Below are positions 7,017 to 49,194 of a stretch of 64,000 nucleotides of DNA, piece after piece. The notes beneath the pieces are model-generated. The model made no database searches, was not told where the DNA came from, and saw only the letters and a program-made list of their open reading frames with translations. Position 1 is the first letter of the stretch. Each line of letters starts with the position of its first letter. Source of the stretch: Phycisphaerales bacterium (GTDB lineage Bacteria > Planctomycetota > Phycisphaerae > Phycisphaerales > SM1A02); contig SIAA01000005.1 in NCBI GenBank assembly GCA_009692045.1, positions 1 to 64,000 of the forward strand, written 5' to 3'. A program made the translations under genes and the position numbers.

Positions 7017-9781
7017 CGAGAAGCGGCTGAAGCGGTCGACTTAGTGCCTGCCCGCAGCAGCCCCGCGGCTGCCGCTACCTGCACCAGCGGCGACTGATCC
7101 CTAAGCAGCGGGCTCAAACGGGCTGCCGCTTGCGGCCCCCCAAGGGAGCCGAGGGTGGCGGCAGCCTGCGCCCGAATCATCGGATCGCGATCAGTAGCGG
7201 CACTCGAGGCGAACTCATAGACCTGAAGCAGTGGCCCGGAGCCGAGCTTGGCCAAGGCCGCAGCCGCAGCTAATCGAATCTCAACTGGTCGCGCCAGCGA
7301 ACCCGAAGCCTCGAGAATATTGTTGAGAATGCCGGCTGACTCTCTATCTCCGACTTCTCCGGCGATCTGGCATCCGAGTGCTATCAACTCGGCATGCTCT
7401 GCAGGCGCTAGAAGTGCTGCGCGGATGGGGTCACCCTGCGACTGGTCTCCCAGTTTGAAGAGCGCCTCGGCGCCCTGGAGCTCCACGATCTTGCTACGGA
7501 TGGGGTCGGGAGTGGCAATCGGCCGCCTCATCCCCTCACGAATGAGAACAATGGCCGAGGGGTTGCCCAACTCGCCCAGAATGATGAAAGCGTTCGCTCG
7601 CTGCGTGGGGTCGCTTCCGAGCACCATCGCCGCCAATGGAGACTGGTCGACTTTGCGCCCCATTCGAGTCAGGGCGAAGATGGCGGCGGCGCGTACCGAC
7701 GGATCAGGGTCGAGCAGCAAGGGCTCCACCAGCGGGATGAGCTTGGGATTCGCGGCTCTGCCACTCGCCATCGCTGCGACAAACCTCACACCTCGATTAG
7801 GACTGCCCAGCGATCGAGGCACGATGAGAGTGAATAGTTCCGGACGAACGGCAAGAGCCTCCAAAGCGTGAGCCCGCAGAAGTTCGTCGCTTCCTGTCGC
7901 GGCCTGGCGCAGCAGATCAATGGCGAGGTCATCTTCGCCAAGAGTCGTGGGAGCATCCAGCGGCGCCTCTCTAGTTGCTGCTAATGCAGTTGGTGCTAGT
8001 GGCTGCAAGCTTCGCTCGCGCGTACTCCACTCCGTGCCCGCGATCGAGTTGGGGAGCTGGGACTTAGAGGCATTCTGCGGCGCTGGAGTCGGCTTGGTGG
8101 TCTGCCCTTGGCGCCGCCACGAACATCCAGTCAGCGTCAGCACTAAACATAATGGGATCAGCAGCTGCGGTGACATGCGCGCCCTTCTGCGAAAACCTAA
8201 GATGGCGCAACTGAGTGCCATTAGCGGAGATGTTACATCACCGATCCGCGCAAAGAGCGGCACTTGGTCGCTGATCGACACTTGGGTGAGCATGCAGGTT
8301 TCAGTTCGTGGCGGCGCGATAGTGGATTCTCGCCCCCACGCATCCGTGCAGGAACTAGTGCCGGTGTTTACCACACGCACCATGGGTGTTCGCAACTCAA
8401 TACAACGCCAGCGGGCGACCTGCTGGTGCTGGGCTCGACCCGCATCAAATGCCCCAAACCAGCCGTCATTACTCAAGTTGATCATGACATCCGCCGCTCG
8501 CTGAGCATTTTGAAAACACATCGACCGGCAAACCTCGGCGACCGTGTCCTCAAAGCAGATTGGAGTTGCAACTCGGATGCCCCCGACTTGCAGGCGAACC
8601 GGTTGGGCTCCGGTATCAAGATCGAACTTCATCCCCTTGGCACCGAAGTCGAGCAAGGTGCTCTCCAACCAATCCCAGTTGGAAATGTAAGGCATGGTTT
8701 CGCCGAACGGAGTCAGAAACAGCTTGTCGGCACGAGCGCGAACCAGACCGTCGTCGATCAAGTAGGCACTGTTGAAGTGCTCGGACCATTCCCAGTTCCC
8801 GTCGCGCTCTGTGAGTCCTAGGTAGGCGGGGCTGCCCACAATCAGGGGGACACCGAGCGACTGCTGCAGGTTTATGGCGGCGTTAGCGAAGCGATCCCCT
8901 GGCCACCAGCCACCACTATTCAATGTTTGGAGAGCTTCTGGCTCGAGGCCGAATCCAGGGAGCATGGTTTCCGGCCAGACAACTACCTGCGCGGGCGTAC
9001 CTGCCTGCCTCGCCTCCACCGCGGCTCGAATCGTCATGTCAATAAAGTGAGAGACATCCCGTTCTTGATCTACCGGCCGCCAGCCGATCTTGTTGTCAGT
9101 TCGCAGGTTGGTCTGAACTGCAAGAACGCGCAAGGTCGAGGTCTCGCGCTTCAGCTTCGCCTCTTCCCAGAAGCCGATCGCCAGGCATACCTGCACCAAT
9201 GCCGCTGCAATCAGGACTCCGCGGCGCCATTCAAGTGGGCGCTCGCTGCTCTGGAACATCACATCTGAGATGCCTCCCGCGACTGCACCCACAATGATCG
9301 TGCCCCACACCGCTCCTAGGTGTTCGGCGCCCTGCGCCAGTAACGGCCACTCGATTAGCGGGGTTCCCGCAAAGAACCAGGGATATCCATCCAATACCAC
9401 TCGGCCTCTGAGCCACTCCATACTGGCGAGTGTGAGCGGCAAGATGATCGCAGCCGGAAGATTGGTGCGAGTCCGCAGCCGTGCCAGCAGCCAGAGAGTG
9501 GCCGGCGTCCACAGTGCCAGATAAAGGCAAAGCGAGGGATACCCGGCTGCCGTAACTAAAGCGACCCACTGCTCCAGAAACAACCATGCTGCGAAGAAGG
9601 CTACGAAACTGGCAATCCACCTTTGACGGTGCGGCATGTAGGCAAGGCGCACCAAGGGAATCGGCGCCACGAATGCCAACCACCACAGGCCGATGGGAGG
9701 AAATGACGCGGCAAACAAGAGAGCGCCGCAGATCGCGGTACCCCAGACTTCACAGGCACTCGGCGGCTTACTTCCCTGCAT
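7013..9781 (-). CDS. lnt: apolipoprotein N-acyltransferase fused in frame to a HEAT-repeat lipoprotein
   Basis: 922 residues in one open frame. Residues 1-530 are Lnt: multiple N-terminal membrane helices, then the nitrilase-like domain with the expected catalytic triad, E271 (WPETMLPG), K353 (ADKLFLTPFGE) and C409 (TPICFED). Lnt transfers the third acyl chain to lipoproteins in the inner membrane. At residue 536 a new lipoprotein signal begins, MSPQLLIPLCLVLTLTGC, followed by a Pro/Ala-rich linker and HEAT-like helical repeats to the C-terminus. AGAAGG lies about 6-8 nt upstream of the internal ATG (8176), so the lipoprotein may also be made from its own start. Ordinary Lnt ends near residue 530. 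The gene start overlaps the accD end by 14 bp. Confidence 0.85.
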   Translation of the reverse strand: MQGSKPPSACEVWGTAICGALLFAASFPPIGLWWLAFVAPIPLVRLAYMPHRQRWIASFVAFFAAWLFLEQWVALVTAAGYPSLCLYLALWTPATLWLLARLRTRTNLPAAIILPLTLASMEWLRGRVVLDGYPWFFAGTPLIEWPLLAQGAEHLGAVWGTIIVGAVAGGISDVMFQSSERPLEWRRGVLIAAALVQVCLAIGFWEEAKLKRETSTLRVLAVQTNLRTDNKIGWRPVDQERDVSHFIDMTIRAAVEARQAGTPAQVVVWPETMLPGFGLEPEALQTLNSGGWWPGDRFANAAINLQQSLGVPLIVGSPAYLGLTERDGNWEWSEHFNSAYLIDDGLVRARADKLFLTPFGETMPYISNWDWLESTLLDFGAKGMKFDLDTGAQPVRLQVGGIRVATPICFEDTVAEVCRSMCFQNAQRAADVMINLSNDGWFGAFDAGRAQHQQVARWRCIELRTPMVRVVNTGTSSCTDAWGRESTIAPPRTETCMLTQVSISDQVPLFARIGDVTSPLMALSCAILGFRRRARMSPQLLIPLCLVLTLTGCSWRRQGQTTKPTPAPQNASKSQLPNSIAGTEWSTRERSLQPLAPTALAATREAPLDAPTTLGEDDLAIDLLRQAATGSDELLRAHALEALAVRPELFTLIVPRSLGSPNRGVRFVAAMASGRAANPKLIPLVEPLLLDPDPSVRAAAIFALTRMGRKVDQSPLAAMVLGSDPTQRANAFIILGELGNPSAIVLIREGMRRPIATPDPIRSKIVELQGAEALFKLGDQSQGDPIRAALLAPAEHAELIALGCQIAGEVGDRESAGILNNILEASGSLARPVEIRLAAAAALAKLGSGPLLQVYEFASSAATDRDPMIRAQAAATLGSLGGPQAAARLSPLLRDQSPLVQVAAAAGLLRAGTKSTASAASR

Positions 9782-10604
9782 AATCGATCAGGCGGCTGAC
9801 TTCACTGCGAAGGTTGGAGCGATGCACGATGCGGTCAACGAATCCGGACTTCAGGAGAAACTCGCTCGTCTGAAAACCCTCGGGCAGATCCTGACGAATC
9901 GTCTGCTTGATCACTCGCGGCCCGGCGAACCCGATCAGCGCTCTCGGCTCAGCGAGGATCACATCGCCGAGCATGGCAAAACTTGCAGTTACACCCCCGG
10001 TGGTCGGATCAGATAGCACGGAAATGAACAAACCGCCAGCATCGTCAAAGCGCGCCAGTGCAGCACTGGTCTTGGCCATCTGCATCAAGGAGAATCCTGA
10101 CTCCTGCATACGCGCTCCACCCGAGCAGGCAACGACAACGAGCGGCAAGTCCAGTTCGGTGGCACGCCGGATTGCTGCTGCGAGTTTTTCTCCAACCACG
10201 CTTCCCATGGAGCCTGCTAGAAATGTGAAGTCCATGCAGCAGAGGATGGTGCGCCGACCCTTGATGAATGCCGCTCCCGTCTGAATGGCATCGTTCTCAC
10301 CCGTCAGTTTCTGGGCGGCAATGATGCGCTCGCGGTAGGGCTTGAGATCGACGAACTCCAGAGGATCCTGAGGGGTCACTGCCTCATTCATAGGTTCGAA
10401 TGTGTCGGGATCAGCCATCTGCAGCACGCGCTGCCGGCCTGAAATGCGCATGTGGTAGTCGCAGCGAGGGCACACGAACAGATTGGTCTCGAGCGCCTTG
10501 CGAAACAGGGTTTCCGAGCAGGCCTGGCACTGGGTCCAAAGACCATCAGGAACAGCGCGCTTAGTCGCAACCGCGTCGGCAGTATCCCAGCTTTGCTTGG
10601 CCAT
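9768..10604 (-). CDS. accD: acetyl-CoA carboxylase carboxyltransferase subunit beta
   Basis: 278 residues from the ATG at 10604. The N-terminal zinc finger (QCQACSETL...VCPRCDYHMR, two C-x2-C pairs) and the crotonase-fold core (CSGGARMQESGFSLMQMAKT, DPTTGGVTASFAMLGD) are both present. With AccA it transfers the carboxyl group from biotin to acetyl-CoA, the first step of fatty acid synthesis. The frame stays open 77 codons further upstream, but that part overlaps rpe and looks unlike AccD, so I chose the internal ATG. accA, accB and accC are not in this window. Confidence 0.95.
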   Translation of the reverse strand: MAKQSWDTADAVATKRAVPDGLWTQCQACSETLFRKALETNLFVCPRCDYHMRISGRQRVLQMADPDTFEPMNEAVTPQDPLEFVDLKPYRERIIAAQKLTGENDAIQTGAAFIKGRRTILCCMDFTFLAGSMGSVVGEKLAAAIRRATELDLPLVVVACSGGARMQESGFSLMQMAKTSAALARFDDAGGLFISVLSDPTTGGVTASFAMLGDVILAEPRALIGFAGPRVIKQTIRQDLPEGFQTSEFLLKSGFVDRIVHRSNLRSEVSRLIDYAGK

Positions 10605-10653
10605 TCTTGGTGCGAATCTTACCGCGTCCCAGTCAGGGAACAGCCAAGTCGAT

Positions 10654-11340
10654 TCACTTGGTTCCCCGCAGCCGCATCTGGGAGATGGCGAGGGCGCGGT
10701 TTGGCGCCCCAAAGAGCGCCGAGGCGGAAACCAGCACATCGCACCCGGCCTCGCGGCATGCCTGCGCGGTGATGGGCGAGACGCCGCCATCCATTTGCAG
10801 CCTTTGATCGGGGCGCAACAACTTGGACACAGCACGCACCTTGGGGAGCACTGCCGAAATAAACGCCTGCCCGGAATATCCTGGATGCACGCTCATCACC
10901 AGCACCAAATCGACCTGAGTCACATAGCGGCGAATGCGTGACACCGGCGTATCGGGATTGATTGCCAGGCCGACGCAACCACCTCGCGCATGAATGCGGT
11001 CGATCAGTTTTTGTGGTTTGGGCTGCGCCTCAATATGAAATGAAATACTGTCACACTCGGCATCGAGAAAGCGCTCGGCGTAGGTGCTGGGATCATCCAC
11101 CATCAAATGGACATCGAGAAATGCCCGAGGGAACCGCCTCCGCAGCGCTTGGCACACCACGGGTCCCATGGACAGGTTGGGAACGAAGTGGCCGTCCATC
11201 ACATCGATGTGCAGCAGATCGGCGCCCGCAGCGAGAGCTCTGGCGGCGTCTACGCCGAGTGCGGCAAAGTCGGCGGACAACACACTGGCCGCGATGAGCG
11301 GCCTACGCAGGCGGCGGCGAAAAAGATTGAGACGACTCAA
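10654..11340 (-). CDS. rpe: ribulose-phosphate 3-epimerase
   Basis: 228 residues with a TIM-barrel pattern: LIAASVLSADFAAL, LLHIDVMDGHFVPNLS (metal-binding H and D), FLDVHLMVDDP, VMSVHPGYSGQAF and QMDGGVS. It interconverts ribulose-5-phosphate and xylulose-5-phosphate in the pentose phosphate pathway, which links functionally to gnd and zwf at the other end of the window. Its start overlaps the stop of the upstream thioredoxin-like gene by 4 bp (ATGA). The usual length is about 220. Confidence 0.95.
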   Translation of the reverse strand: MSRLNLFRRRLRRPLIAASVLSADFAALGVDAARALAAGADLLHIDVMDGHFVPNLSMGPVVCQALRRRFPRAFLDVHLMVDDPSTYAERFLDAECDSISFHIEAQPKPQKLIDRIHARGGCVGLAINPDTPVSRIRRYVTQVDLVLVMSVHPGYSGQAFISAVLPKVRAVSKLLRPDQRLQMDGGVSPITAQACREAGCDVLVSASALFGAPNRALAISQMRLRGTK

Positions 11341-12437
11341 CCCTTGCTTCCGCCCGAAGGCAGACTTGCTGACGCATCGGGCTTGGCCGCGCTCTTGCCC
11401 GCCTGCTTATAGGCATCCAAGTCGCGTTTCAGCATGGGCTTTACATCCGGTGGCGCCATGCGCCAAGCCAGAGTCTGGGCCTCGATAGCCTGCGGAAGCT
11501 GACCCTTGGCCGCGTAAACGCTGGCAAGAGTCGAGTGAACCTCATAGTCCCCCTCCTGTGCCATCGACTCATACTTCTTGGCAGCAGTCAATGCACCATC
11601 AAAGTCATGCGCGGGCAGTTTGGGATCGGTAGCAAGCATCAGGGAAATCTCGCGCATGGCACCAGCGTCACCCGCTTCTTCGTACTTCTCCAGAATGCTC
11701 TTGAGATAGAGCTTGGCGCCTGCGGCATCCCTCTGATCCCGCTGCGTCATGGAGTATCGCTCCAGCGCCGCATCTAAAAACAACTTGGAGTTGAACTCGA
11801 CTGCTTGATCGTAGAACTTGCTGGCTTCGGCCCAGTTTTTTTCCTTGGCGCTGCGTCTTGCGGCAGCGACGATTGCCTCACCTTTGGGAGTCAGCTCGGG
11901 GTCATAACGGCCTCGAAGCGACCGTCGGATCACCATCTCCATTCGCTCGCCATCGGCACTGGGATGAGGGTTTCCGATAAACACAATCTTGCCGTCAGCG
12001 ACGATCACCGCGTGGGGGATGCCGCTGCCGCCGGTGGGGGTCATCAGTTTGCTCTTGGCATCCTTGGTCTTGTCGACGGCCACGAAGTAGGACATGGCGT
12101 CGCCCCGCTGATTCACGAAGGGCTCGACCTTGGCTCGCATCTCATCGGAGATGCCGACGACGACGAGCCCGCGAGACTTCAAGGACTTGTACATATCGTT
12201 GATGTGCGGGATTGATGCCTTGCATGGGGCGCACCAGGTAGCCCAGAACTCAAAGACGATCACCTTGCCGGAGTTGACCTGCCCATTGTCACCACGGATG
12301 AAGTCCAGATTGAAGTCGGTGACATTGGGGGCTGGCGACCCCAGTTTCAGCGCCTCCTGCCGAGCGGAGGCCAAGGGCGCCGCCAACAGGACACTCAACA
12401 TTGCGGTCGCTATAGCGATGGGACTGACTGCGCGCAT
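11337..12437 (-). CDS. secreted TlpA-like thioredoxin with a C-terminal helical domain
   Basis: 366 residues from the ATG at 12437, chosen because AAGGAGA lies about 8 nt upstream. An in-frame ATG at 12461 has no such site. Residues 1-26 are a signal peptide (…AAPLASA). A TlpA/ResA-like thioredoxin domain with the redox pair WCAPC follows, and it keeps a cis-Pro-type SGIPHAVIV loop. The last 190 residues are helical and TPR-like (YDQAVEF, KKYESMAQ, IEAQTLAWRMAPPDVK). The likely role is a periplasmic disulfide reductase or a related thiol function; the partner is unknown. Cys-rich proteins are encoded elsewhere in the window, but a link is speculative. Confidence 0.85.
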   Translation of the reverse strand: MRAVSPIAIATAMLSVLLAAPLASARQEALKLGSPAPNVTDFNLDFIRGDNGQVNSGKVIVFEFWATWCAPCKASIPHINDMYKSLKSRGLVVVGISDEMRAKVEPFVNQRGDAMSYFVAVDKTKDAKSKLMTPTGGSGIPHAVIVADGKIVFIGNPHPSADGERMEMVIRRSLRGRYDPELTPKGEAIVAAARRSAKEKNWAEASKFYDQAVEFNSKLFLDAALERYSMTQRDQRDAAGAKLYLKSILEKYEEAGDAGAMREISLMLATDPKLPAHDFDGALTAAKKYESMAQEGDYEVHSTLASVYAAKGQLPQAIEAQTLAWRMAPPDVKPMLKRDLDAYKQAGKSAAKPDASASLPSGGSKG

Positions 12438-35596: not shown

Positions 35597-37658
<2,062 letters not shown>

Positions 37659-37662
<4 letters not shown>

Positions 37663-37739: not shown

Positions 37740-40700
37740 ATGCAGTTCAGCGCCATTATCAGAAGCTTGGGTATTGGTCTTGTCTGCCTTTTAGGCCTGT
37801 CCACCCCGGCTTGGGCGCAGATGCCCGAGATCTTCATCAATGAGGTTCGCATCGACGACAGTTCCATCGATCCGGTGGGGATTGAATCAGAGCAAGACCT
37901 CCGCGAGTACTTTGAAATCAGAGGCCCCGCGGGAACGAGCCTCTCTGGATACTGGTACATCGTCATTGGTGGCCGCTACGGCGACGACGCCGGCAGAATC
38001 AATGTCTTGGCTAATCTGGCGCGAACCGGCTCCGCCACTTCAACCGCCTCCATCGCCTCCAACGGGCTCTATTGCATCCGCCCATCAGGCTCCACAGCGC
38101 CTGCCGACATCACCATGCTTGCTTCGGAGGGATTCGCGGATGAGCGGTACTCGCAAACCCACCTGATCGTGGATGGATTCAACCCGCTCATGGGGATTGG
38201 CATCGGTTCGGATCTCGATCTGGACAACGATGGGATTCTCGACACCGCGCCGTGGGTGAAAGTGATCGACTCCGTGGCGCTGGTCGGGCCGGTGAGTATT
38301 CCTGGGCTCGTCTACTCGGACACTCGCGTGGGCCCCTGGCTTGATTATGCCAATACAACCGCAGTAGCCGCAACTGCCCTCCCGCCCCAGATTCTGCGCT
38401 GCCGTGACAATGCCTCATGGTTCGTGGGAGTTCTCGCCTATCGAACTTCCGTACCTACGGTTCCTTCCCAATCCGCGTCTTCCGCCAGCGCCGCTGTCCG
38501 GGATCCGCGAACTCATGACACGCCTACTAGTCCCAATCCACTTGCCGACTGCGCCTGTGATGCGACATCGACTGCAGCCCCGGAGTTCTGCCTCTCCTGC
38601 CTAGGGGATGTGAACTACGACGGCTTGATAAACGGCAGGCTTGCACCCTCGAGCATGGCGTGCACTGGCGCAAGCGCGGATACTGACTTCTGTCTTGCCC
38701 GCACCGTTGCCAATGATTTTTCCTGCCGCGATGTTGATCGAAACGGCGCGGTCACACCTGCTGATCTCGCCCTGATTCGCGTGCCGGTTCTCGCGGGAAC
38801 TCAGGCTGCCTGCCCCACGGGGGGGACTCTGCCAGTCGCCTGCGGCACCAGTTCGCAAGTCTGCACTGTTGCATCTACTGCGATTCCACCAGCGCGCGGC
38901 TGCAGATTCCCCGCCTGCTGCGAGGTGGTATGCGCATCGCTCCCAGACTGCTGCGACATCGAGTGGGATCAGGACTGTGCTTCGCTGGCCAATGTGTCGG
39001 CTCAGTGCTTCATTCGCTGCAAGGACTGCCCCGATAGCGGAGCCACCTCCGTTTGCGGTCGCAATCCCGGCGACTGCTTCGTGATTCACGATGGCCCCGG
39101 CTGCCGCTCGGCCGATTGCTGCGAGCGCGTCTGTTCGCTCATGCCCCAGTGCTGCGAAGCGGACACCAACTGGGATGCAGCCTGTGTGGCCATGTCACTT
39201 CTTCTGGCCGAGCAGGCTCCCGTGGAGGATGATTGCGATCCCTGCCTGCGAGCGAGCGTTCTTGCAGATTGTTTCAACATCCATGACGCACCAGGCTGCA
39301 ACTTTCAGGACTGCTGCCGCGATGTTTGCGCCGATATGCCCAGCTGCTGCACCGTCACCTGGGATCAGGCCTGCGTCGACCTCGCTGAGGACCTCTGCCT
39401 GTTCTGCGATGCCCCTGCCGCAGTTACTTGCTACGCCGGCCACTCTACGCCCTATTGCACCGACACCAACAACGGCTCGGGGACCAGTTGCTGCGAACTC
39501 ATCTGCACTACTTTTGAGCCAAACTGCTGCGATGTGGAGTGGGATGCAGCGTGCGCCCGCCTCGCCGCTGAGTACTGCGTTCAATGCGGCGATCAGTTCG
39601 CCGGGGTCTGCGGCATCGCCCACATCAACCCCAAGTGCTCAGATGCCGCATGCTGCGATGTGGTGTGCATCGCTGACTCCTATTGCTGCACCATCACCTG
39701 GGATGATCACTGCGTAGAACTCGCTGCGGGGCTGTGCATCTCCTGCGGTAGCGATTGGGCCGGAGACTGCTGTACGCCCCACCAGTCTCCCTACTGCCGC
39801 GAGCTTAGGCCCGGCGAAGGTGGCGCCTGCTGCGTCACGGTGTGCGGCCACGATCCCGGATGCTGCGATATCGAGTGGGACAGTACCTGCGTTGTCCTAG
39901 CGGAGATCATCTGTGGAGCATCGTGCAGTTGCGTCGAGTCAGTCCAGGACTGCCTGATTCCTCACACCGAGCCGGGCTGCAGCCCCCAGTCGTGTTGCCT
40001 GCGCGTCTGCGAGGTTGATGCCTTCTGCTGCGATGCCGAGTGGGACACGATCTGTGCTCAGGAAGCAGGTGCGTTCTGCGCTCCATCGCAGCCTCTGTGC
40101 GGCATTTCTGGTAGTGGCAGCTGCCGAGTGGTGCATCTGTCGGTCGGTTGCGAAGATGCCGAGTGCTGCGGGCAGGTGTGCGCCAATGACCCCAGCTGCT
40201 GCGATACCGGCTGGGATGAAGACTGCGTCGCTGAGGCGGCTCTGCTCTGCGATCGATGCGGTGACCCGCAGGCTGGTGCATGCTTCGGTCAACACACCGG
40301 CGGTGGTTGCGAAGATGTTCTGTGTTGCATGACCGTCTGCCTAAGTGATGCATTCTGCTGCCAGGTGGGCTGGGATGCCGGCTGCGCCAGCCTTGCCTTC
40401 TCGCTGTGCGGGACTCCCCCAGCGATCAGTTGCGGCGACGCCGACTGTCGTCCTTGCTGGATGGACTCACCCGTGCCCGGCTGCGCCGACTTGGAGTGCT
40501 GCGAACTTGTCTGTGCTGCCGTCGATCCCTTCTGCTGCGAGGAGAGATGGGATGCCGCCTGTGCCGCCGAGTCGCTCTACCTGTGCGATGAACCCCCGGG
40601 CGCAAACGGGGTTCGCGGTTGCTTTGATGAACACCCCGGCACGGGATGCAACGATCCCCAGTGCAGCGCCGCCGTCTGCTTCGTTCTGCCCAGCTGCTGC

Positions 40701-42665
40701 GACACCGAGTGGGACTTCCCCTGCGTCGATCTCGCCCTTGACACCTGCATCCAGCGCGATCCTTGCCCCGCCGATGGTCCCTGCTTTACCGTGCACAACA
40801 ACGACACCGGCTGCAACGATCCCAGCTGCTGCAATGCGGTCTGCACCGTAGACCCCGCCTGCTGCGCGGTGGGATGGGACTCCGATTGCGTATCAGTTGC
40901 CCGCACCTACTGCCAGGCGAACCTCACCACCGATTGTCCCTGCTGGGGTAAGTGCCTCCACGCCCACTCCGGCGCTGGTTGCGAGGACGAAGCGTGCTGC
41001 ACCGCCGTCTGCCAGTACGACATTCTCTGCTGCACCGCAGCCTGGGATCAGGACTGCGCAACCCTGGCACGAAGTGTTTGCTGCGGTTCAGGGCGCTGCG
41101 GCGATAGCTGCAACGGGTCATGCCTATCCGAGCATCTCAGCCCCTACTGCGATGACCCCTACTGCTGCGACTCGGTGTGCGAGATCGATCCCACCTGCTG
41201 CAGCATTGCCTGGGATCAGCTTTGCGTGAACCATGCCTTCGTTCGCTGCAACTTTGCCGGGTTCAATGGCGCTGGCGACTGCTATGTCGTTCACGATTCC
41301 CCCGGCTGCAACGATTTGGTAATTTCCATTGGCGTGTGTGCCCTGCGTCCCGAGTGCTGCTCGGCAACCTGGGATCAGGTGTGTGTCGATGAGGTGATTC
41401 TGCAGAATGGCCCCATCGGCTGCGGCATCGGCGAAGTCGGCGCCTGCAACATGGTGCATGCTCGTCCCTATTGCAGCGAAGCCGAGTGCTGCACCGCCAT
41501 TTGCGCTGGGGATCCCTTCTGCTGCGACACCACTTGGGACTCCACCTGCGTCCAGGCGGTCTACACCACCAAGGGCTGCGAGGCATTCGATCTGACCTGC
41601 GGCGACACCTGCGCCGGGCCCTGCTGCGAGGATCATGACAATCCGTACTGCAACAACGAAGAATGCTGCCAGGAAGTGTGCGCGATCGATGCCATCTGCT
41701 GCGACCTGCGCTGGGATGCCACCTGCGCCAACGAGGCTGCTCTCTATTGTGGCGATCCCGGTGAAGAGTGCGCGCGGCTCGAATGCGGAGACACAGATGC
41801 CGAGAACTGCTGCTCTAAGCATGAAACCCCCGCCTGCAACCTTCTAGACTGCTGTCAGGCTGTTTGCCTTCTGGATACCTTCTGCTGCGAACACAACTGG
41901 GACTCGCTGTGCGTTCTGATGGCTCAGGGTCAGTGCGAGATTTGCGCCAGCACTGCCGCGTGCGGCACTCCCCTCGACGGGCACGACTGCCTAACCAGCT
42001 CCAAGTTCCCCTTCTGCGAGGCCATCGCCGGAGTCACCACAGGAACCTGCTGCACTGATGTGTGCGCGCTCCTCGGCTACGAATACTGCTGCACCGCAGC
42101 GTGGGATGACGCCTGCGTCGGAGCAGCGGTCTCGATCTGTCTGTTCCCCTCCTTCCCGCCTGCCAACGATGATTGCGGCGGGGCAACGCTCGTTACATGG
42201 AACGACGGCCAGCCGCTGGAACTGCGGGAATTCTCCAACTTCGACGCCACCAACAGCCTGCTGGCCGACGGAACTCTGTTCCCTGACCCGGCCGGTTGCG
42301 ATGAGGACGCTGCCAGCACGACCACGCCACTTCGCGGCGACATCTGGTTCAAGCTGGTTCCGCCCTGCACCGGCAGTGTGACCATCTCTACATGCCAGAT
42401 CAGCGGATCGAACACAGTGCTCGCGGTCTACCAACGGGATCCCGGCACTGATGCATCCGTACCCGACTGCGACGCCCTCATTCCCATGGGCGGGGTCTAT
42501 TGCAGTGACAACGCTCCCTACTGCAACTTCGGCGGAGCCGAGGTTACGGTGCTGACCAGTGCTGACAAACCTCTATGGGTGCGACTCGGGAGCCCCTATC
42601 AGTGCGGCCTGACTGGATGCCTCATCCAAGGCTTCGTAATGTTTGATCTACCCTGCACGCCTTGA
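37740..42665 (+). CDS. secreted 1641-residue protein with 19 Cys-rich CC/WD modules and a dockerin-like pair
   Basis: I start it at the ATG at 37740, which gives a clean signal peptide (…LLGLSTPAWA|Q). Residues about 27-250 begin with IFINEVRIDD and EYFEIRGPAG, like a lamin-tail-type domain. Around 289-340 two EF-hand-like loops (GDVNYDGLING, RDVDRNGAVTPADL) resemble dockerin repeats. Residues about 385-1470 hold 19 modules of roughly 45-60 residues, consensus C-x3-H-x4-C-x4-CC-x3-C-x5-CC-x3-WD-x2-C-x7-C. The last 170 residues form a beta-rich, PPC-like C-terminal domain (ANDDCGGATLV, DIWFKLVPPCTG). With 150-plus cysteines it must be oxidised outside the cytoplasm. No enzyme motif is seen. 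The role is unknown; a surface or extracellular structural or binding role is an inference. Confidence 0.85.
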   Translation: MQFSAIIRSLGIGLVCLLGLSTPAWAQMPEIFINEVRIDDSSIDPVGIESEQDLREYFEIRGPAGTSLSGYWYIVIGGRYGDDAGRINVLANLARTGSATSTASIASNGLYCIRPSGSTAPADITMLASEGFADERYSQTHLIVDGFNPLMGIGIGSDLDLDNDGILDTAPWVKVIDSVALVGPVSIPGLVYSDTRVGPWLDYANTTAVAATALPPQILRCRDNASWFVGVLAYRTSVPTVPSQSASSASAAVRDPRTHDTPTSPNPLADCACDATSTAAPEFCLSCLGDVNYDGLINGRLAPSSMACTGASADTDFCLARTVANDFSCRDVDRNGAVTPADLALIRVPVLAGTQAACPTGGTLPVACGTSSQVCTVASTAIPPARGCRFPACCEVVCASLPDCCDIEWDQDCASLANVSAQCFIRCKDCPDSGATSVCGRNPGDCFVIHDGPGCRSADCCERVCSLMPQCCEADTNWDAACVAMSLLLAEQAPVEDDCDPCLRASVLADCFNIHDAPGCNFQDCCRDVCADMPSCCTVTWDQACVDLAEDLCLFCDAPAAVTCYAGHSTPYCTDTNNGSGTSCCELICTTFEPNCCDVEWDAACARLAAEYCVQCGDQFAGVCGIAHINPKCSDAACCDVVCIADSYCCTITWDDHCVELAAGLCISCGSDWAGDCCTPHQSPYCRELRPGEGGACCVTVCGHDPGCCDIEWDSTCVVLAEIICGASCSCVESVQDCLIPHTEPGCSPQSCCLRVCEVDAFCCDAEWDTICAQEAGAFCAPSQPLCGISGSGSCRVVHLSVGCEDAECCGQVCANDPSCCDTGWDEDCVAEAALLCDRCGDPQAGACFGQHTGGGCEDVLCCMTVCLSDAFCCQVGWDAGCASLAFSLCGTPPAISCGDADCRPCWMDSPVPGCADLECCELVCAAVDPFCCEERWDAACAAESLYLCDEPPGANGVRGCFDEHPGTGCNDPQCSAAVCFVLPSCCDTEWDFPCVDLALDTCIQRDPCPADGPCFTVHNNDTGCNDPSCCNAVCTVDPACCAVGWDSDCVSVARTYCQANLTTDCPCWGKCLHAHSGAGCEDEACCTAVCQYDILCCTAAWDQDCATLARSVCCGSGRCGDSCNGSCLSEHLSPYCDDPYCCDSVCEIDPTCCSIAWDQLCVNHAFVRCNFAGFNGAGDCYVVHDSPGCNDLVISIGVCALRPECCSATWDQVCVDEVILQNGPIGCGIGEVGACNMVHARPYCSEAECCTAICAGDPFCCDTTWDSTCVQAVYTTKGCEAFDLTCGDTCAGPCCEDHDNPYCNNEECCQEVCAIDAICCDLRWDATCANEAALYCGDPGEECARLECGDTDAENCCSKHETPACNLLDCCQAVCLLDTFCCEHNWDSLCVLMAQGQCEICASTAACGTPLDGHDCLTSSKFPFCEAIAGVTTGTCCTDVCALLGYEYCCTAAWDDACVGAAVSICLFPSFPPANDDCGGATLVTWNDGQPLELREFSNFDATNSLLADGTLFPDPAGCDEDAASTTTPLRGDIWFKLVPPCTGSVTISTCQISGSNTVLAVYQRDPGTDASVPDCDALIPMGGVYCSDNAPYCNFGGAEVTVLTSADKPLWVRLGSPYQCGLTGCLIQGFVMFDLPCTP
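38890..42150 (+). repeat. 19 tandem Cys-rich module repeats within the coding sequence
   Basis: Each module is recognised by the 'WD-x2-C' anchor; I counted 19 such anchors, from IEWDQDC to AAWDDAC. Spacing is about 135-180 bp. Modules 11 (CNDPQCSAAVC) and 15 (CNDLVISIGVC) lack the central Cys pair. Several linkers add an extra Cys (C-x2-C). The copies diverge at DNA level, so this looks like an old expansion and not recent slippage. Confidence 0.85.
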
Positions 42666-42672
42666 GCGACTC

Positions 42673-42692
42673 GCCCCTGACAACTCAGGGGC
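42673..42692. terminator. bidirectional terminator candidate
   Basis: GCCCCTGA-CAAC-TCAGGGGC is a perfect 8-bp stem with a 4-nt loop, placed between the stop codons of the convergent Cys-rich and GspK-like genes. It includes the GspK stop. No T-tract on either side. Confidence 0.5.
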
Positions 42693-45600
42693 TGGCGCGC
42701 TCGAAGTAGAGCAACTTGGGCTTGTCATTGGGATGACGCACGCTGCTGCGATCGACGGCAAACACATAGCGAGAGTCATCAACAATCGTGGCAGGATCAG
42801 TGGCATCCCAGCGGAAGTTGATGGAGTTCTGCCGAAAGGTTCGAATGCGCATGGAGACCGTGAATGTGTCACTGCGTGTCGTCACCAGATTGGAGATGCC
42901 GCTGAACAGCATGTTGAGTTCCTCGGCATCACCTGCGGCGCGGTCGCGCTCTCGAAGCGCCGTGGTGGCGCCCGCCCCAGGATCCCATGCCACGGTGCCG
43001 TGCGTCGTATCAGTTGACAGCCGCGCATCCAAGGGCGCATCGGGAGAGCCGTACCCGCGTCCAACAGTTCGATAGGGATCGCGCCCGGCGTACTCGATGC
43101 TCGTTGATTGCAGCGCACCATAGGAAACTGGCAGACCGGCGGGCTGATTCACATAGTCGGCATCGGTACCGACCTCGAAGCCCCGAGAGAGCAGGCGCAG
43201 TTCAGCCGGTGAGGCAAACCCGCGTTCGGCGCGCATGCCGGGGCGGAAGGTGAGTGCGGTGGTCGAGAAGGTGCCGCGGTCCAGGTACCAGGGTGCACCC
43301 AAGGTGTCTGATCCGTCCGTGTAGTTGCGCTCAAATGCCAGATCGCGGTAGGCGATGATCGCCTCGGGCACTCTGACATGAACGCTCTCGTCAGGATCGG
43401 GGTACAGGCCGGGAATGTCGCCTAGTTGGCCAACAATTCCCGAGTCCGCCGCCTCGAAGTTGCGCAGCGTCACCGGCAGCGCGGAAGTGCGCCAGAGTGT
43501 TGCCGCATCCTGAATGTCGGAATCATCAGTGACGAGCCGTTCCATGTTGGGCAGGGTCCGCAGGACTTCCACCGGTGCCGTATTGATGTTCACCAGGCCG
43601 GGGACGCTGCCGCCTTCGCCATCGATGACACCACTACCTATAGCCAGCCCGAAACGGCGGCGCGCCACCACCAAGTCATCCCAGTCTGACGAAAGAGTCA
43701 CCACACTTCCCGTAGCACCCGATGGCATCACCATCACCGATGGCCATTCCAGAATCCCATCACCATCGGCATCGCTGGCTGTGATCATGCCACCCCCGTC
43801 ACAAACAAGGCGCTCGATGAAACGGGTCACTGGCGGCAGAGTCGGCTCTGCCGACTTGACGCGCGGATTCCAGGATGCCGTGCTCGCCCAGCCCACATCA
43901 GTTGATCGACCGGGATCGAGGCGGCCTAAGAAGCGAAGTCGCTCCCGAATGTCCGCCTGGGCGAAGATCGCCGCGTTCGCAGGTGTTTCCAAGGAATAAA
44001 ACGCATTGGCCGTGCGCTGCTCCATGTTGGCCCAGAAGTCCAGCTCATCGCAGATCGCTTCGCCGTAAGTGCGCGCCGTGCGCTGGTAGTTCTCCACCAC
44101 ACTGCCGCCAACGGGCGTGTTGGTTTCAACGGCGATACCCCAGGTTGCCACATCCATGGCCTCGCCCACCTGCTCAAAGTCGGCATCCTTGACACTCGGA
44201 CGCCACGCCACTGGCAGGCGGAACGCCTCGTACTTCACATTGGGATTGGTCTCGCCGGGACTGCCCTCGGCCCGCCCGCCCTTGTCACCGTATGAAATGC
44301 GGCAGACCTGACCGAACAACGGGCTCACAGATGCCAGAGCATTTGGATTCACAATCTGCGGAGTACCGGAGACAGGCGCAGCGGCATGAATGAAGGCGGG
44401 CGGATAGATCCGCCACTGCTCGGTACCAGTCCATGCCAACACTGATTGGGTTGAGAAGAACACGGGCTTGCCGCGCCGACCCGCCAGTTCGCTCGGGGAA
44501 TCCCACGGACTGCCGGTAATGGATCGGTGATAGGGATCGACCCATCCAACGGCGCGGAACCATTGGCTCGGCTGCACATCCGGTGGCACTGCTGATGGAT
44601 TCACTCTGTCCGGATCGTCAGCTGCGACCGGATCAGCGAGCGCGGGAATCGCATTGGTATTGCGATCGATGAATCCGTTGTAGACATCGCCATCGGCTGT
44701 CTGCGAACTGGAGCCGCTTCCTTCAAAGACAGCACCAGGAGCACCAGTCCCCTGCCCGGATCCCGATGCGAGCGAGCCGAAGCCCGGCGCAGTCACCTGC
44801 ACGCTGGTGGCAAGGATGAAACGCGGCGCCCGCTCCTGCGGCTGAATCACGCCGTCTGCGGCGGGAGTCGCCGTGGCACCCGAGTCTGGCGGATCCCATG
44901 ACCATGGCCGCGTCGCGTGCGCCCAAGTCATGAAGTAATCCTCGGTACCGATGCGAATGCCGTTGTACCAGTAGGGCTCAACAGGCACGTTGGGAAGATT
45001 TCCCACTACCCAGTTATCGCTCTGCCCCTGTGTTGGTGGCACAAACTTTGGATTGTCCTCTCGAAGTTCTTCCACTACTTCGGTGAATGTCATCGTTCCC
45101 AGCGGAGTGGTCGGAGGCTGATTGAACATGCGAGGCGGCGCCACCGATTCAGCGGGTGGATCGATGCGATCAACCAGAATCCAGTCAGATGCGCGCTGGC
45201 TGGGGCTCAAGGGCACACCCACAGATCGGTAAGGCAGTTTCCACTCGATGGCAATCGTTGGATGCCGAGCTGGCGGCTGCCATCCGAGTTCAAACACTGT
45301 GCCGGTGGTGCTGTTCTGCGCCGGAGTACGCACCAGTTGCGCCATGGGCTGTTCGCCGTTCGCTATCGGCTCTGGCACTTCGGGTACACCCGGCAGAGCC
45401 ATGGCGATGTAGGGCATCTCCGCTGGGAACACCAGAGTGTCATCGCCGCTAGCGATCCCGGCTGCAGAAGCCCATGCCGCGCTATCGGGGTTACCGTCAT
45501 AATCCCAGTCAGTAGTGGGATCCTGATAAACAGGAAACGCGGGCAAGAGCGCGTCCGGAGTGCGCAGAATGTCCCAGTCGTTGGAGTGCGGTGCGGCGAT

Positions 45601-48600
45601 GGGGAAGCCCGCGCCACCCCAGCTGTTGACGGCATTGCCCTGCACCTCGGCTATGTCGAGAGCATCCAACCAGAAGTCGCGGAAGAAGGGATCGTAGGAA
45701 ACAAAGTTGCGATCAGCCTGAAAGCGTGTGACCTCATTGGCATCAGCACCGCTGCCTGTGGCCGATGGCGACAACACCGAACGCGTCACCAAGAAATCCT
45801 GCTGGGCCGTGGTCAGCACCAACTGCGACGCATTGGGGCCGCCCGATGCACCTCCGGGATACTCATTGAGAGCACCCGCAGCGTGATGCTGTCGTCCCCA
45901 GACAATGGGAGGGATGGCGTAGACGATGGCAGTGCAAGGGCGCTCTTCAGTCGTCGGCCCCAGCACGGCGTTGTCGGGAAAGCGAAAGGTCCAGCCCCAG
46001 GCGTTGATGCGGAAATCCTTTAGAGGCAGCGGCGTGTCATAAGGATTGCCGATTTGGATAGCGAGCACGACGCGGGCGCGGGAGCGGCGATCAACGCTGT
46101 ACTCACCACCTCCGGGAACTACCCCGATTCCACCCGGCACACCGTTGTTGCCCTCAGGCACGCGCCAGTGGTCGGCATTCCACTCAGCAGTCAGTGGATT
46201 CTGCGCTCCGAAGGTCTGGGCGATGCGCGTCTTGGGATAGACAAAGGCCACGAAGCACTCCATCAGAAACGGATGCCGCTCTAAACCAAGGTGCCGTACA
46301 GCGTTGCTTGAACTCGTGCCGTTGTCGCGGAACCGAACCGGATGCGGCTCCAGAGGTGCCTCGAGAATCGGTATTGGCTTGCTGCGAGACTCGAACTGAT
46401 TGACGCCTGAAGTAATGTCGGTGACGATCGCCCCCTGCTCTTTCCAGGGCGAAGTGTCCAGCAGATTGTTGGGCTCGTAGGCAAGCGGCGCATCACGGTA
46501 CTGCGAGGCATTCGCCCCCCAGGAGACCGCCAATGACTCCGACTGTTCGCGCAGTCGAATCAGTTCATCCTGAATGGCTTGATTGCCATAGATAGACGGG
46601 TCAAGGATGGAGAGAGCCGAATCGGAGTAATAACTTCGACCGGCACCGAAGTCGGCAACGCCTGAGGCCGAGTATCCATTGCCGTCGAGGACATCGGGGT
46701 ACTCGAGCACACTGCTGCGCAATGCGTGAGTCAGATCAAAGCGCCACTGCTCGCCGTTCACAGCCCCGGTGTTATAGAACCCCATGATGTTTCCCTGCAG
46801 CGGATTCCCAGGGCCGACCGGCACAGACGGGAACACCTCAAACACCACTGCCGGCAGTGACTCTGCTCGCAGATCGATCTTCTGCCGCGTGTGGTCGTAG
46901 GCGCGCGGGTTGACATTCATCCACGAGGTCGGATCTGCGGGGTTGGAAGAGAGAATCCCCGTGTCAGACCCGGGAACCAGTACCGGTGTGGCTGGCTGCG
47001 GAGTCGCCATCACGGGATACCTCGTGGCGCTTCCATGACCGTACAACCTGGGCCGCACCGCCGCGGCCTGCCCCGCATCAGCGATCCAAAGACCCGTGGC
47101 AGCCTCTACTCCGGATGACAGCGGGTAGCCGGGGGAGAGCTGGAAGTCCATGTAATTCCACGCACTCGAGTAGTAGGGAGAAATCCAATCCCACGGAGGC
47201 TGCAGGTCATTAGTAGTTCCGCTGAACACCGTGAGGCGGTGGCGCATGTCGCGCACCAGTTGCCGGTTGGTGAGGCGGTCGGGTCCGTAGTCGAAGGTCT
47301 CCTCGCGACTCCAAGTAGATCGCAATACATTGGGGGCGTCCTGCCCCGCGGTTCCCAGCGGATCTCTAGTGGTATCCACGCCGAGTGCGCGCTCGAGGCG
47401 AGACATCACGGTTGGGTCATTGCGAGCCGCATTGGCGCGCAGCTCTACCTCGTCAGCCGCGCCAAATAGAGACAGGATCGGCACATCGTCGAAGGAGTCG
47501 CCCGTCACATCAGTAGGAACCAACTCATCACTTCTACGGGACTGCCGGAAGGACATGAGACGCTCAAATGGATCATGAAGCAGATCGTCGAACAGAGGCT
47601 CCGCCGATCCATTGGCGCGGATGAAGCGGCGCTCCCGCAGGAATGAGGTCTCATTCTGGGCGGGGTCGAGAGGATTGAGCGTGATGGGGCCAGCCCAGCG
47701 TCCATTGTTGAACGATGCGTCAATCGCCGGGAAATACTGGGGCGGACCATTGACGGTGAAATCGAGATTGCCTCGCGCGTTGAGCATGGCAACCGGAACA
47801 GGATCGCTGCCAGTAACGGTGCGATTGGTGTTGCTAGGGCCGAAGGCGAGATCAGCGGGAGTGTGGCCGCGCGTGCTGCGCCGATCAAATCGAGTTGCCG
47901 TGTTGACATCGAGCATCGACCCGTTGTCGACGATGGTGACGGCAACAACCTGCCGCAACCCCTTCTCCATGTTGCTGGGAACGGTGAACCAGAAGCTGTC
48001 AGTGAATCCATCGCCGTCAGCGTCCGCGAGCGTTCGCATCACATTCCATCGAGGTGAGTTGTAAGTGAACTCATCGTTGGGCTCTTCACCGATCTCACAG
48101 CGGATGCCGTCGCCATCCAGATCCGCGAGGTCGTAAAAGTTGCCGGGGGTGCGGGCACTGTCCCGGTAGGCAGCCTGATGGCGGTTGGCATTGCTCGCCA
48201 GATCGCTGCACCAGTTGTTCCACAGAATGCGCCAAGCATCGGCATCTGCCTGGGAACCGTTGCCCGGGTTTCCTGTGCCCGGCTCCACCGTTGCCAACCA
48301 CTGCTCAACGGGCACACTGAGATCAAGGAGAATGTTTGTGCCGCTTGCGTAATCGATGTTGCTGATGTCCCAGCACACGCGGAATCCGTTGTCGGGCCGC
48401 GAAATGTTGGACATGTGCAGCCACCATGCAAACCTCTCCTCGCGCGCTTCGTCGGTGGGATCAGCACTGACCAGCCGCACCGGTTCCGTGCTGCGAAGCC
48501 ACCGAGTGTCGCCTGAGCCAGGGCCGCCCGCCGGATTGCCATCGCCGATGGGAAGCGTCGCCAGAGTCGTGGTCATACCGCGCGGATTCCACTGCCCATG

Positions 48601-49194
48601 CGGATATCCGATCACGGCAGAAGCTGTAGTGTCGGGCCAGTTGGTCCAGGGAACTACCTGATACGGTGCATGATTGAAGCCATCGGCGATCCAGCCCAAT
48701 CCGCCGGTAGCCGGATACACCACGGAGTTGTTCAACTCACCGCTGGCGTTGTCGGTCATGTCAATCGGATCCATGCGAAACCTGTCCTGCAGACCAAACC
48801 CGGTCCACAGCCCATCGCTGACTTCCGCTGGCGCGTACCGCAACCTCGTGGTGTCAAGGATGTCGTGCACCGTCCCCGTCGCATCGAGGGTCGTGACAAT
48901 GGGGATCAGAGCCTGATCGATCAGACCTGTTGTCGGATCGGCGAAGACGCTGTAATCAACGGGCTTCACAAAGAGACTGTCGGAGATCATGGCCGCCAGA
49001 TCGCCGCCGATTCGTTCGGGCTGATCCGAGAGTGACTGACTCTGCTGCTGACTCGCCGCCAGAGATCGCAGAGAGCGGGCCCGACTGATGAAGGCCGTGG
49101 CAATGATGACAAAGATCACCAGCATGGCGACCACCAGGATCAGGGCATTACCGCCCCGAGAGTGAGTAGAGGTTCCAAGCGTTACCGACTTCAT
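42685..49194 (-). CDS. giant GspK-like minor pseudopilin
   Basis: 2169 residues, about six times the usual GspK length. The N-terminus (SRGGNALILVVAMLVIFVIIATAF) is the hydrophobic pilin-like helix of GspK/PilX proteins, without a +5 Glu, as usual for GspK. Near residue 1868 the hallmark GspK helix-hairpin motif LVNINTAPVEVLRTLP occurs, followed by AIIAYRDL. Between them lies a large soluble region with several DxDxDG loops (LADADGDGFTDSF, DLDGDGIRCE, ASDADGDGILEW) that look calcium-binding. GspK caps the pseudopilus tip in type II secretion. The ATG overlaps the GspJ-like stop by 4 bp. It is the last gene of the pseudopilin operon. Confidence 0.8.
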   Translation of the reverse strand: MKSVTLGTSTHSRGGNALILVVAMLVIFVIIATAFISRARSLRSLAASQQQSQSLSDQPERIGGDLAAMISDSLFVKPVDYSVFADPTTGLIDQALIPIVTTLDATGTVHDILDTTRLRYAPAEVSDGLWTGFGLQDRFRMDPIDMTDNASGELNNSVVYPATGGLGWIADGFNHAPYQVVPWTNWPDTTASAVIGYPHGQWNPRGMTTTLATLPIGDGNPAGGPGSGDTRWLRSTEPVRLVSADPTDEAREERFAWWLHMSNISRPDNGFRVCWDISNIDYASGTNILLDLSVPVEQWLATVEPGTGNPGNGSQADADAWRILWNNWCSDLASNANRHQAAYRDSARTPGNFYDLADLDGDGIRCEIGEEPNDEFTYNSPRWNVMRTLADADGDGFTDSFWFTVPSNMEKGLRQVVAVTIVDNGSMLDVNTATRFDRRSTRGHTPADLAFGPSNTNRTVTGSDPVPVAMLNARGNLDFTVNGPPQYFPAIDASFNNGRWAGPITLNPLDPAQNETSFLRERRFIRANGSAEPLFDDLLHDPFERLMSFRQSRRSDELVPTDVTGDSFDDVPILSLFGAADEVELRANAARNDPTVMSRLERALGVDTTRDPLGTAGQDAPNVLRSTWSREETFDYGPDRLTNRQLVRDMRHRLTVFSGTTNDLQPPWDWISPYYSSAWNYMDFQLSPGYPLSSGVEAATGLWIADAGQAAAVRPRLYGHGSATRYPVMATPQPATPVLVPGSDTGILSSNPADPTSWMNVNPRAYDHTRQKIDLRAESLPAVVFEVFPSVPVGPGNPLQGNIMGFYNTGAVNGEQWRFDLTHALRSSVLEYPDVLDGNGYSASGVADFGAGRSYYSDSALSILDPSIYGNQAIQDELIRLREQSESLAVSWGANASQYRDAPLAYEPNNLLDTSPWKEQGAIVTDITSGVNQFESRSKPIPILEAPLEPHPVRFRDNGTSSSNAVRHLGLERHPFLMECFVAFVYPKTRIAQTFGAQNPLTAEWNADHWRVPEGNNGVPGGIGVVPGGGEYSVDRRSRARVVLAIQIGNPYDTPLPLKDFRINAWGWTFRFPDNAVLGPTTEERPCTAIVYAIPPIVWGRQHHAAGALNEYPGGASGGPNASQLVLTTAQQDFLVTRSVLSPSATGSGADANEVTRFQADRNFVSYDPFFRDFWLDALDIAEVQGNAVNSWGGAGFPIAAPHSNDWDILRTPDALLPAFPVYQDPTTDWDYDGNPDSAAWASAAGIASGDDTLVFPAEMPYIAMALPGVPEVPEPIANGEQPMAQLVRTPAQNSTTGTVFELGWQPPARHPTIAIEWKLPYRSVGVPLSPSQRASDWILVDRIDPPAESVAPPRMFNQPPTTPLGTMTFTEVVEELREDNPKFVPPTQGQSDNWVVGNLPNVPVEPYWYNGIRIGTEDYFMTWAHATRPWSWDPPDSGATATPAADGVIQPQERAPRFILATSVQVTAPGFGSLASGSGQGTGAPGAVFEGSGSSSQTADGDVYNGFIDRNTNAIPALADPVAADDPDRVNPSAVPPDVQPSQWFRAVGWVDPYHRSITGSPWDSPSELAGRRGKPVFFSTQSVLAWTGTEQWRIYPPAFIHAAAPVSGTPQIVNPNALASVSPLFGQVCRISYGDKGGRAEGSPGETNPNVKYEAFRLPVAWRPSVKDADFEQVGEAMDVATWGIAVETNTPVGGSVVENYQRTARTYGEAICDELDFWANMEQRTANAFYSLETPANAAIFAQADIRERLRFLGRLDPGRSTDVGWASTASWNPRVKSAEPTLPPVTRFIERLVCDGGGMITASDADGDGILEWPSVMVMPSGATGSVVTLSSDWDDLVVARRRFGLAIGSGVIDGEGGSVPGLVNINTAPVEVLRTLPNMERLVTDDSDIQDAATLWRTSALPVTLRNFEAADSGIVGQLGDIPGLYPDPDESVHVRVPEAIIAYRDLAFERNYTDGSDTLGAPWYLDRGTFSTTALTFRPGMRAERGFASPAELRLLSRGFEVGTDADYVNQPAGLPVSYGALQSTSIEYAGRDPYRTVGRGYGSPDAPLDARLSTDTTHGTVAWDPGAGATTALRERDRAAGDAEELNMLFSGISNLVTTRSDTFTVSMRIRTFRQNSINFRWDATDPATIVDDSRYVFAVDRSSVRHPNDKPKLLYFERASP

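Follow-up and report, generated by a model that had tools for sequence, protein, structure and literature searches.

A predicted secreted planctomycete protein with 19 cysteine-rich modules of an undescribed CC/WD type

Tandem Cys-rich modules of approximately 40 residues, with several disulfides each and arranged as arrays in secreted proteins, are familiar from animals, where they include the EGF, LDLR-A, granulin and Kazal modules. To our knowledge, none of these carries the CC/WD signature of the module described here, which had no Pfam match to any of them and is helical in our model.

The myxobacterial surface receptor TraA also has Cys-rich repeats in the middle of the protein, two of which are dispensable and tolerate the insertion of GFP (PMC6626042). 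The array described here, as a central stretch of Cys-rich repeats, may work in the same way in a surface protein. However, library scans gave the array protein no match to any described Cys-rich repeat.

The core of the module, C-x5-CC-x3-WD-x2-C, is shared with an unnamed CC/WD domain of Myxococcota, for example in Sorangium cellulosum So0157-2 (L068) and Corallococcus (L074), and both forms are found in multi-domain proteins of secreted type. The myxococcal form differs in its N-terminal part (C-x-H-x2-C-x2-G-x2-L-x3-C, without C16) and is usually present in one to six copies near the C-terminus.

The array gene and its product

The gene was found in a 64-kb window, by which we mean the whole stretch of DNA that was analysed. 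It is an open frame with its ATG at 37740, a coding region of 37740-42662 and a stop codon ending at 42665, and it contains no internal stops. The 1641-aa product consists, in order, of a hydrophobic N-terminus, a beta domain, two EF-hand-like loops, the 19 Cys-rich modules and a beta-rich C-terminus. The features referred to below are:

36937..37662, + strand: uppS, a conserved upstream neighbour, separate from the array protein (conserved location in relatives)
37740..42665, + strand: gene for the predicted secreted multi-module protein, 1641 aa (ATG-to-stop open frame, 19 modules, orthologues)
37740..37817, + strand: predicted signal peptide, aa 1-26 (hydrophobic N-terminus, A-x-A site, ending AWA-Q; read from the sequence)
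37818..38522, + strand: lamin-tail-like (LTD-like) beta domain, approximately aa 27-235 (AlphaFold2, Foldseek, 21-row alignment)
38598..38790, + strand: dockerin-like or EF-hand-like pair, DVNYDGLIN ... DVDRNGAVTPAD (from sequence only)
38871..42140, + strand: array of 19 Cys-rich CC/WD modules (regular expression and profile matches, model of modules 8-9, co-loss disulfide map)
40095..40418, + strand: modules 8 and 9 in tandem, treated as a single unit in modelling (AlphaFold2, 60 tandem pairs)
42150..42662, + strand: C-terminal beta-rich domain of the NDDC...A type, PPC-like (sequence comparison with orthologues)

The original prediction of a 19-module Cys-rich array was borne out. CC-x3-5-WD-x2-C occurs 19 times in the frame of the array; the rest of the six-frame translation of the window has no copy, and when the residues of the array were shuffled the mean number of matches was 0.04 and the maximum 2 (2000 shuffles). 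Modules are approximately 43 residues long and are separated by linkers of mostly 7-20 residues that usually include one Cys. There are 218 Cys in the protein and 198 in the array region, or approximately 10.4 per module, in line with nine core Cys and one linker Cys.

The kept positions are less strict than had been claimed. While W, D and the second CC are present in 19/19 modules, His is present in only 16 (it is missing from modules 1, 10 and 19) and the first CC in only 17, as module 11 has CS and module 15 has neither Cys. The exact spacing C-x3-H-x4-C-x4-CC-x3-C-x5-CC-x3-WD-x2-C-x7-C, attributed to all 19 modules, fits just nine of them. Across 461 non-identical modules, W and C35 are present in every one (461/461 each), and the His position is occupied by H in 271 and by N in 73. 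The modules of the array share approximately 40-55% identity among themselves, keeping the core and diverging at many other positions.

By a crude hydrophobicity rule, 88 of 106 related ORFs whose N-terminus is complete have a start similar to that of the array protein, and secretion, predicted from the signal peptide, is plausible. The adjoining domain had been called lamin-tail-like, and this finds some support in its predicted fold (AlphaFold2 pLDDT 79, pTM 0.81, with a disordered tail to aa 261), for which the top Foldseek matches in the PDB are the tails of lamin-B1 and lamin-B2, with weak E-values (0.02 and 0.06; prob 0.97 and 0.89). The likeness to the lamin tail domain lies in the predicted fold; among 21 aligned members, there was no Pfam match to PF00932 at E up to 1. 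The same domain recurs in orthologues, paralogues and many other module proteins. The dockerin-like pair is less certain, as Dockerin_1 values in orthologues (0.00086-0.84) are all below the cut-off and there was no Pfam match (PF00404) in this protein. The C-terminal beta-rich domain, also with no Pfam match in this protein, is variable: the orthologues in genomes G015 and G002 have it and others end in a short tail.

When the whole protein was used to query Pfam, NCBIfam and PDB sequences, no families were returned at E up to 1. The best values for the 19 modules against Pfam were 0.13-0.38, which is noise, with DUF4215 and all other Cys-rich repeat models included, and Pfam matches to Keratin_B2, spider toxin and conotoxin families were rejected because they reflect Cys composition only. 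The module profile reached E-values of only about 0.4-1 against PDB sequences, and the module model returned one ribosomal match from the PDB (E 9.0, prob 0.01) with Foldseek, which is weak for small disulfide-rich folds; both were rejected as noise. Ten related proteins gave no match resembling the module in NCBIfam, and no description of the motif or of planctomycete Cys-rich repeats was found in the literature. The original prediction that this is not a named domain therefore holds for Pfam, NCBIfam and PDB sequences.

Distribution of the module and conservation of the locus

A search with a profile of the modules had been proposed, and a 43-position profile returned 31 matches in six ORFs of the same genome (best E 4e-16). 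The modules in the window fit the planctomycete profile, in which C26-C27, W31 and C35 are invariant. A set of 60 relatives was searched: almost every genome of the same family was positive, with 1 to 111 modules each, and the 24 genomes representing other families within the order had none. In a class-wide sample 54 of 298 genomes were positive, among them those of a second family (f112), which is rich in modules, and a few more, and in a thinner phylum-wide sample modules were found in the same family only.

Among the matches listed in a pattern scan of named genomes were MAGs of Phycisphaerales and other planctomycetes, many of them of lake origin, as well as Myxococcota, e.g. Sorangium, Corallococcus, Polyangium and Enhygromyxa. 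Homologues outside this gene are thus many, and extend to another phylum. A profile of the myxococcal form was found in 35 of 189 Myxococcota genomes and in 2 of 198 Bacteroidota genomes. Divergent CC/WD modules, four of them in one ORF, were seen in Bacteroidota proteins from a Flavobacteriales UBA4660 MAG (L056).

The planctomycete and myxococcal profiles were aligned by hhalign over 35 columns with a probability of 98 (E 1.6e-13), and the myxococcal profile matched 21 places in the genome studied here, including this gene's modules down to 5e-8, though the shared Cys weigh heavily in both comparisons. As Cys-rich profiles share composition, homology rests on the in-register WD, V-C and A-x3-C positions. 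On this evidence the case that the two forms are homologous and belong to the same superfamily is convincing. No match was found in plasmids, phages or viral contigs, and a mobile-element or phage origin was rejected on this ground.

A further 21 genomes of the family have an orthologue of the long array (E < 1e-80). For 18 of these 21, uppS is on the same contig within 10 kb of the array (hand count from two tables), the exceptions being two genomes of one genus and one in which uppS was not detected. When module order was compared with that in the window, the agreement was above the shuffle mean in 10/10 arrays and above all 200 shuffles in 7/10. As the linkage to uppS and the module order are both conserved, we conclude that the locus of the array gene is old and fixed in position. 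The low identity between modules, taken with an order that is conserved between genera, likewise indicates that the array is old, and rules out a recent repeat expansion.

Downstream of the array, 42685-49194 (- strand) encodes a 2169-aa protein whose N-terminus is prepilin-like and which had no Pfam match. Its homologues are present in 51 of 61 family genomes and often adjoin uppS even where there is no long array. The adjacency is thus part of the family backbone, and a functional link between this protein and the array was rejected.

Predicted fold and cysteine pairing

The structure prediction suggested for a single module was run on modules 8-9 with 60 tandem pairs, and gave a confident three-helix module (AlphaFold2 pLDDT 91.7, pTM 0.63). 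The helices are at module positions of approximately 13-22, 25-28 and 33-42, each preceded by a conserved Asp (positions 12, 23 and 32). These Asp and the other conserved non-Cys residues, W31, V19 and A39, look structural, and none of the invariant residues looks catalytic.

Across the 461 distinct modules, Cys are lost in pairs. C20 is lost with C27 in 7 or 8 of 8 losses and C15 with C43 in 13/13, while all losses of C10 coincide with loss of C1 and the linker Cys is lost with C16. With near-duplicates and a C18 variant removed, 328 modules remained, in which the four strongest co-loss pairs were C20-C27, C15-C43, C1-C10 and C16-linker Cys (the four p-values, from the smallest, being 1e-13, 3e-11, 6e-8 and 1e-6), with no residue shared between them. 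C26 and C35, which are almost never lost, are left over. As the four pairs are disjoint, C26-C35 remains as the fifth disulfide, and the pattern predicted from co-loss is C1-C10, C15-C43, C20-C27, C26-C35 and linker Cys-C16. The five disulfides that had been thought possible are therefore supported by paired Cys loss. In the variant, found mostly in Myxococcota, C2 and C18 together replace C16 and the linker Cys.

Module partners and possible roles

In related proteins, the modules are accompanied by subtilase, reprolysin/M43/M36, trypsin, PPC, LamG, C-type lectin, kelch, dockerin and FG-GAP domains, all of which are of a secreted kind. Many of these proteins carry a single module only, and in 48 of 114 the module is no more than 40 aa from the C-terminus. 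In paralogues from the same genome, modules are found with lamin-tail-like, PPC-like and dockerin-like domains, recognized mostly by sequence comparison rather than by Pfam. One paralogue (L191:5504-7810) combines a single module with three lamin-tail-like domains and, at its C-terminus, a dockerin-like pair. A truncated ORF at a contig end (L190:6594-8648; G000:C62) has three modules, two of which lack both C20 and C27; they sit between a prodomain-like part and what by eye is an apparent subtilase start, with no Pfam match.

We are confident that the module represents a mobile domain of extracellular proteins, hitherto undescribed. The best overall explanation, which we consider probable, is that a disulfide-locked domain is used in a stiff extracellular stalk or scaffold, and for the array protein in particular we put the chance of such a function at about even. 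Exported proteins would use the module, a three-helix mini-domain locked by five disulfides, as a stiff, protease-resistant building block. The 19 modules that follow the lamin-tail-like domain would probably form a long rigid rod beyond the cytoplasm, at the surface or within the matrix. The rod would keep the terminal beta domains at a distance from the cell, and the diverged modules could offer position-specific binding surfaces. Like the extracellular scaffold or binding protein of the original prediction, which is plausible, export, disulfide formation in vivo, the rod shape, the surface location and the binding role are what we infer. A stalk or scaffold is favoured by the combination of a fixed core, divergence elsewhere, no catalytic candidate, extracellular partners and a kept module order. 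Against it, a pure stalk would not need the many one-module proteins, and the two-module pTM of only 0.63 makes the relative placing of modules, and hence the rod, uncertain. The failure to find VKOR, which catalyses disulfide formation, in this genome and in most array-rich relatives also counts against this reading.

The lectin, LamG and kelch partners, the secreted hydrolases and the frequent C-terminal position of the module, which is common for binding modules, would also suit a carbohydrate- or surface-binding module (adhesin or CBM-like), with avidity for a polymer or for the surface of prey arising from the tandem copies, and with the protein acting as an adhesin or substrate anchor. 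This is unlikely, as a conserved aromatic patch is absent apart from a partly kept F/Y at position 25, and 19 equal binding sites are hard to square with diverged modules kept in a fixed order.

We give still less credence to a multi-domain protease inhibitor or protective decoy, in which every module, locked by disulfides, would inhibit independently through an exposed loop of its own, as in Kazal or TIL arrays, controlling proteases secreted by the same bacteria. Modules are fused to subtilases, reprolysins and trypsin, and they diverge at many positions around a kept core, but there is no demonstrated hypervariable loop and kelch, LamG and lectin domains also have modules beside them. A secreted metalloprotease-like gene with HExxHxxGxxH and, by eye, FG-GAP-like repeats lies between uppS and the array in two genera (L184:5738-8584; L182, about 8440-11460), directly upstream of the array, a position that would fit such control.

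Metal binding by Cys together with His, as raised in the original prediction, is not supported by the module set: loss of Cys follows fixed pairs, as expected of disulfides, rather than clusters, His is replaced freely (by N, S, R or G in approximately 40% of modules), and Cys and His are not conserved as a ligand set. A metal storage or uptake protein, binding Cu or Zn as metallothionein-like or MopE-like proteins do, is thus very improbable, and the compact helical fold of the model also speaks against it, even with 218 Cys, a frequent His per module and a Pfam Cu-binding_MopE motif beside the modules in three related proteins. A further point in its favour is that VKOR (PF07884), one disulfide-forming catalyst, was not found in the same genome, for which reason VKOR was also rejected as a folding partner. 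VKOR is present in 3 of 16 family genomes with at least 20 modules, compared with 13 of 21 with fewer (hand count), a scarcity that may reflect phylogeny.

That the array is a scaffoldin-like docking platform, each order-fixed module being a separate site for a secretome partner, e.g. one with a dockerin-like C-terminus, a frequent ending in that secretome, is a long shot; if true, the platform would be a disulfide-built analogue of the cellulosome scaffold.

Whichever role applies, the array raises the question of how approximately 95 disulfides form in one protein when VKOR is not found. Single genomes of one planctomycete family contain up to approximately 110 copies of the domain, which also occurs in Myxococcota yet lacks a Pfam or NCBIfam entry, so that many of the secreted proteins with it are likely to be annotated as hypothetical. 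With the module profile, the disulfide map and the conserved array linked to uppS, its role can be tested directly.
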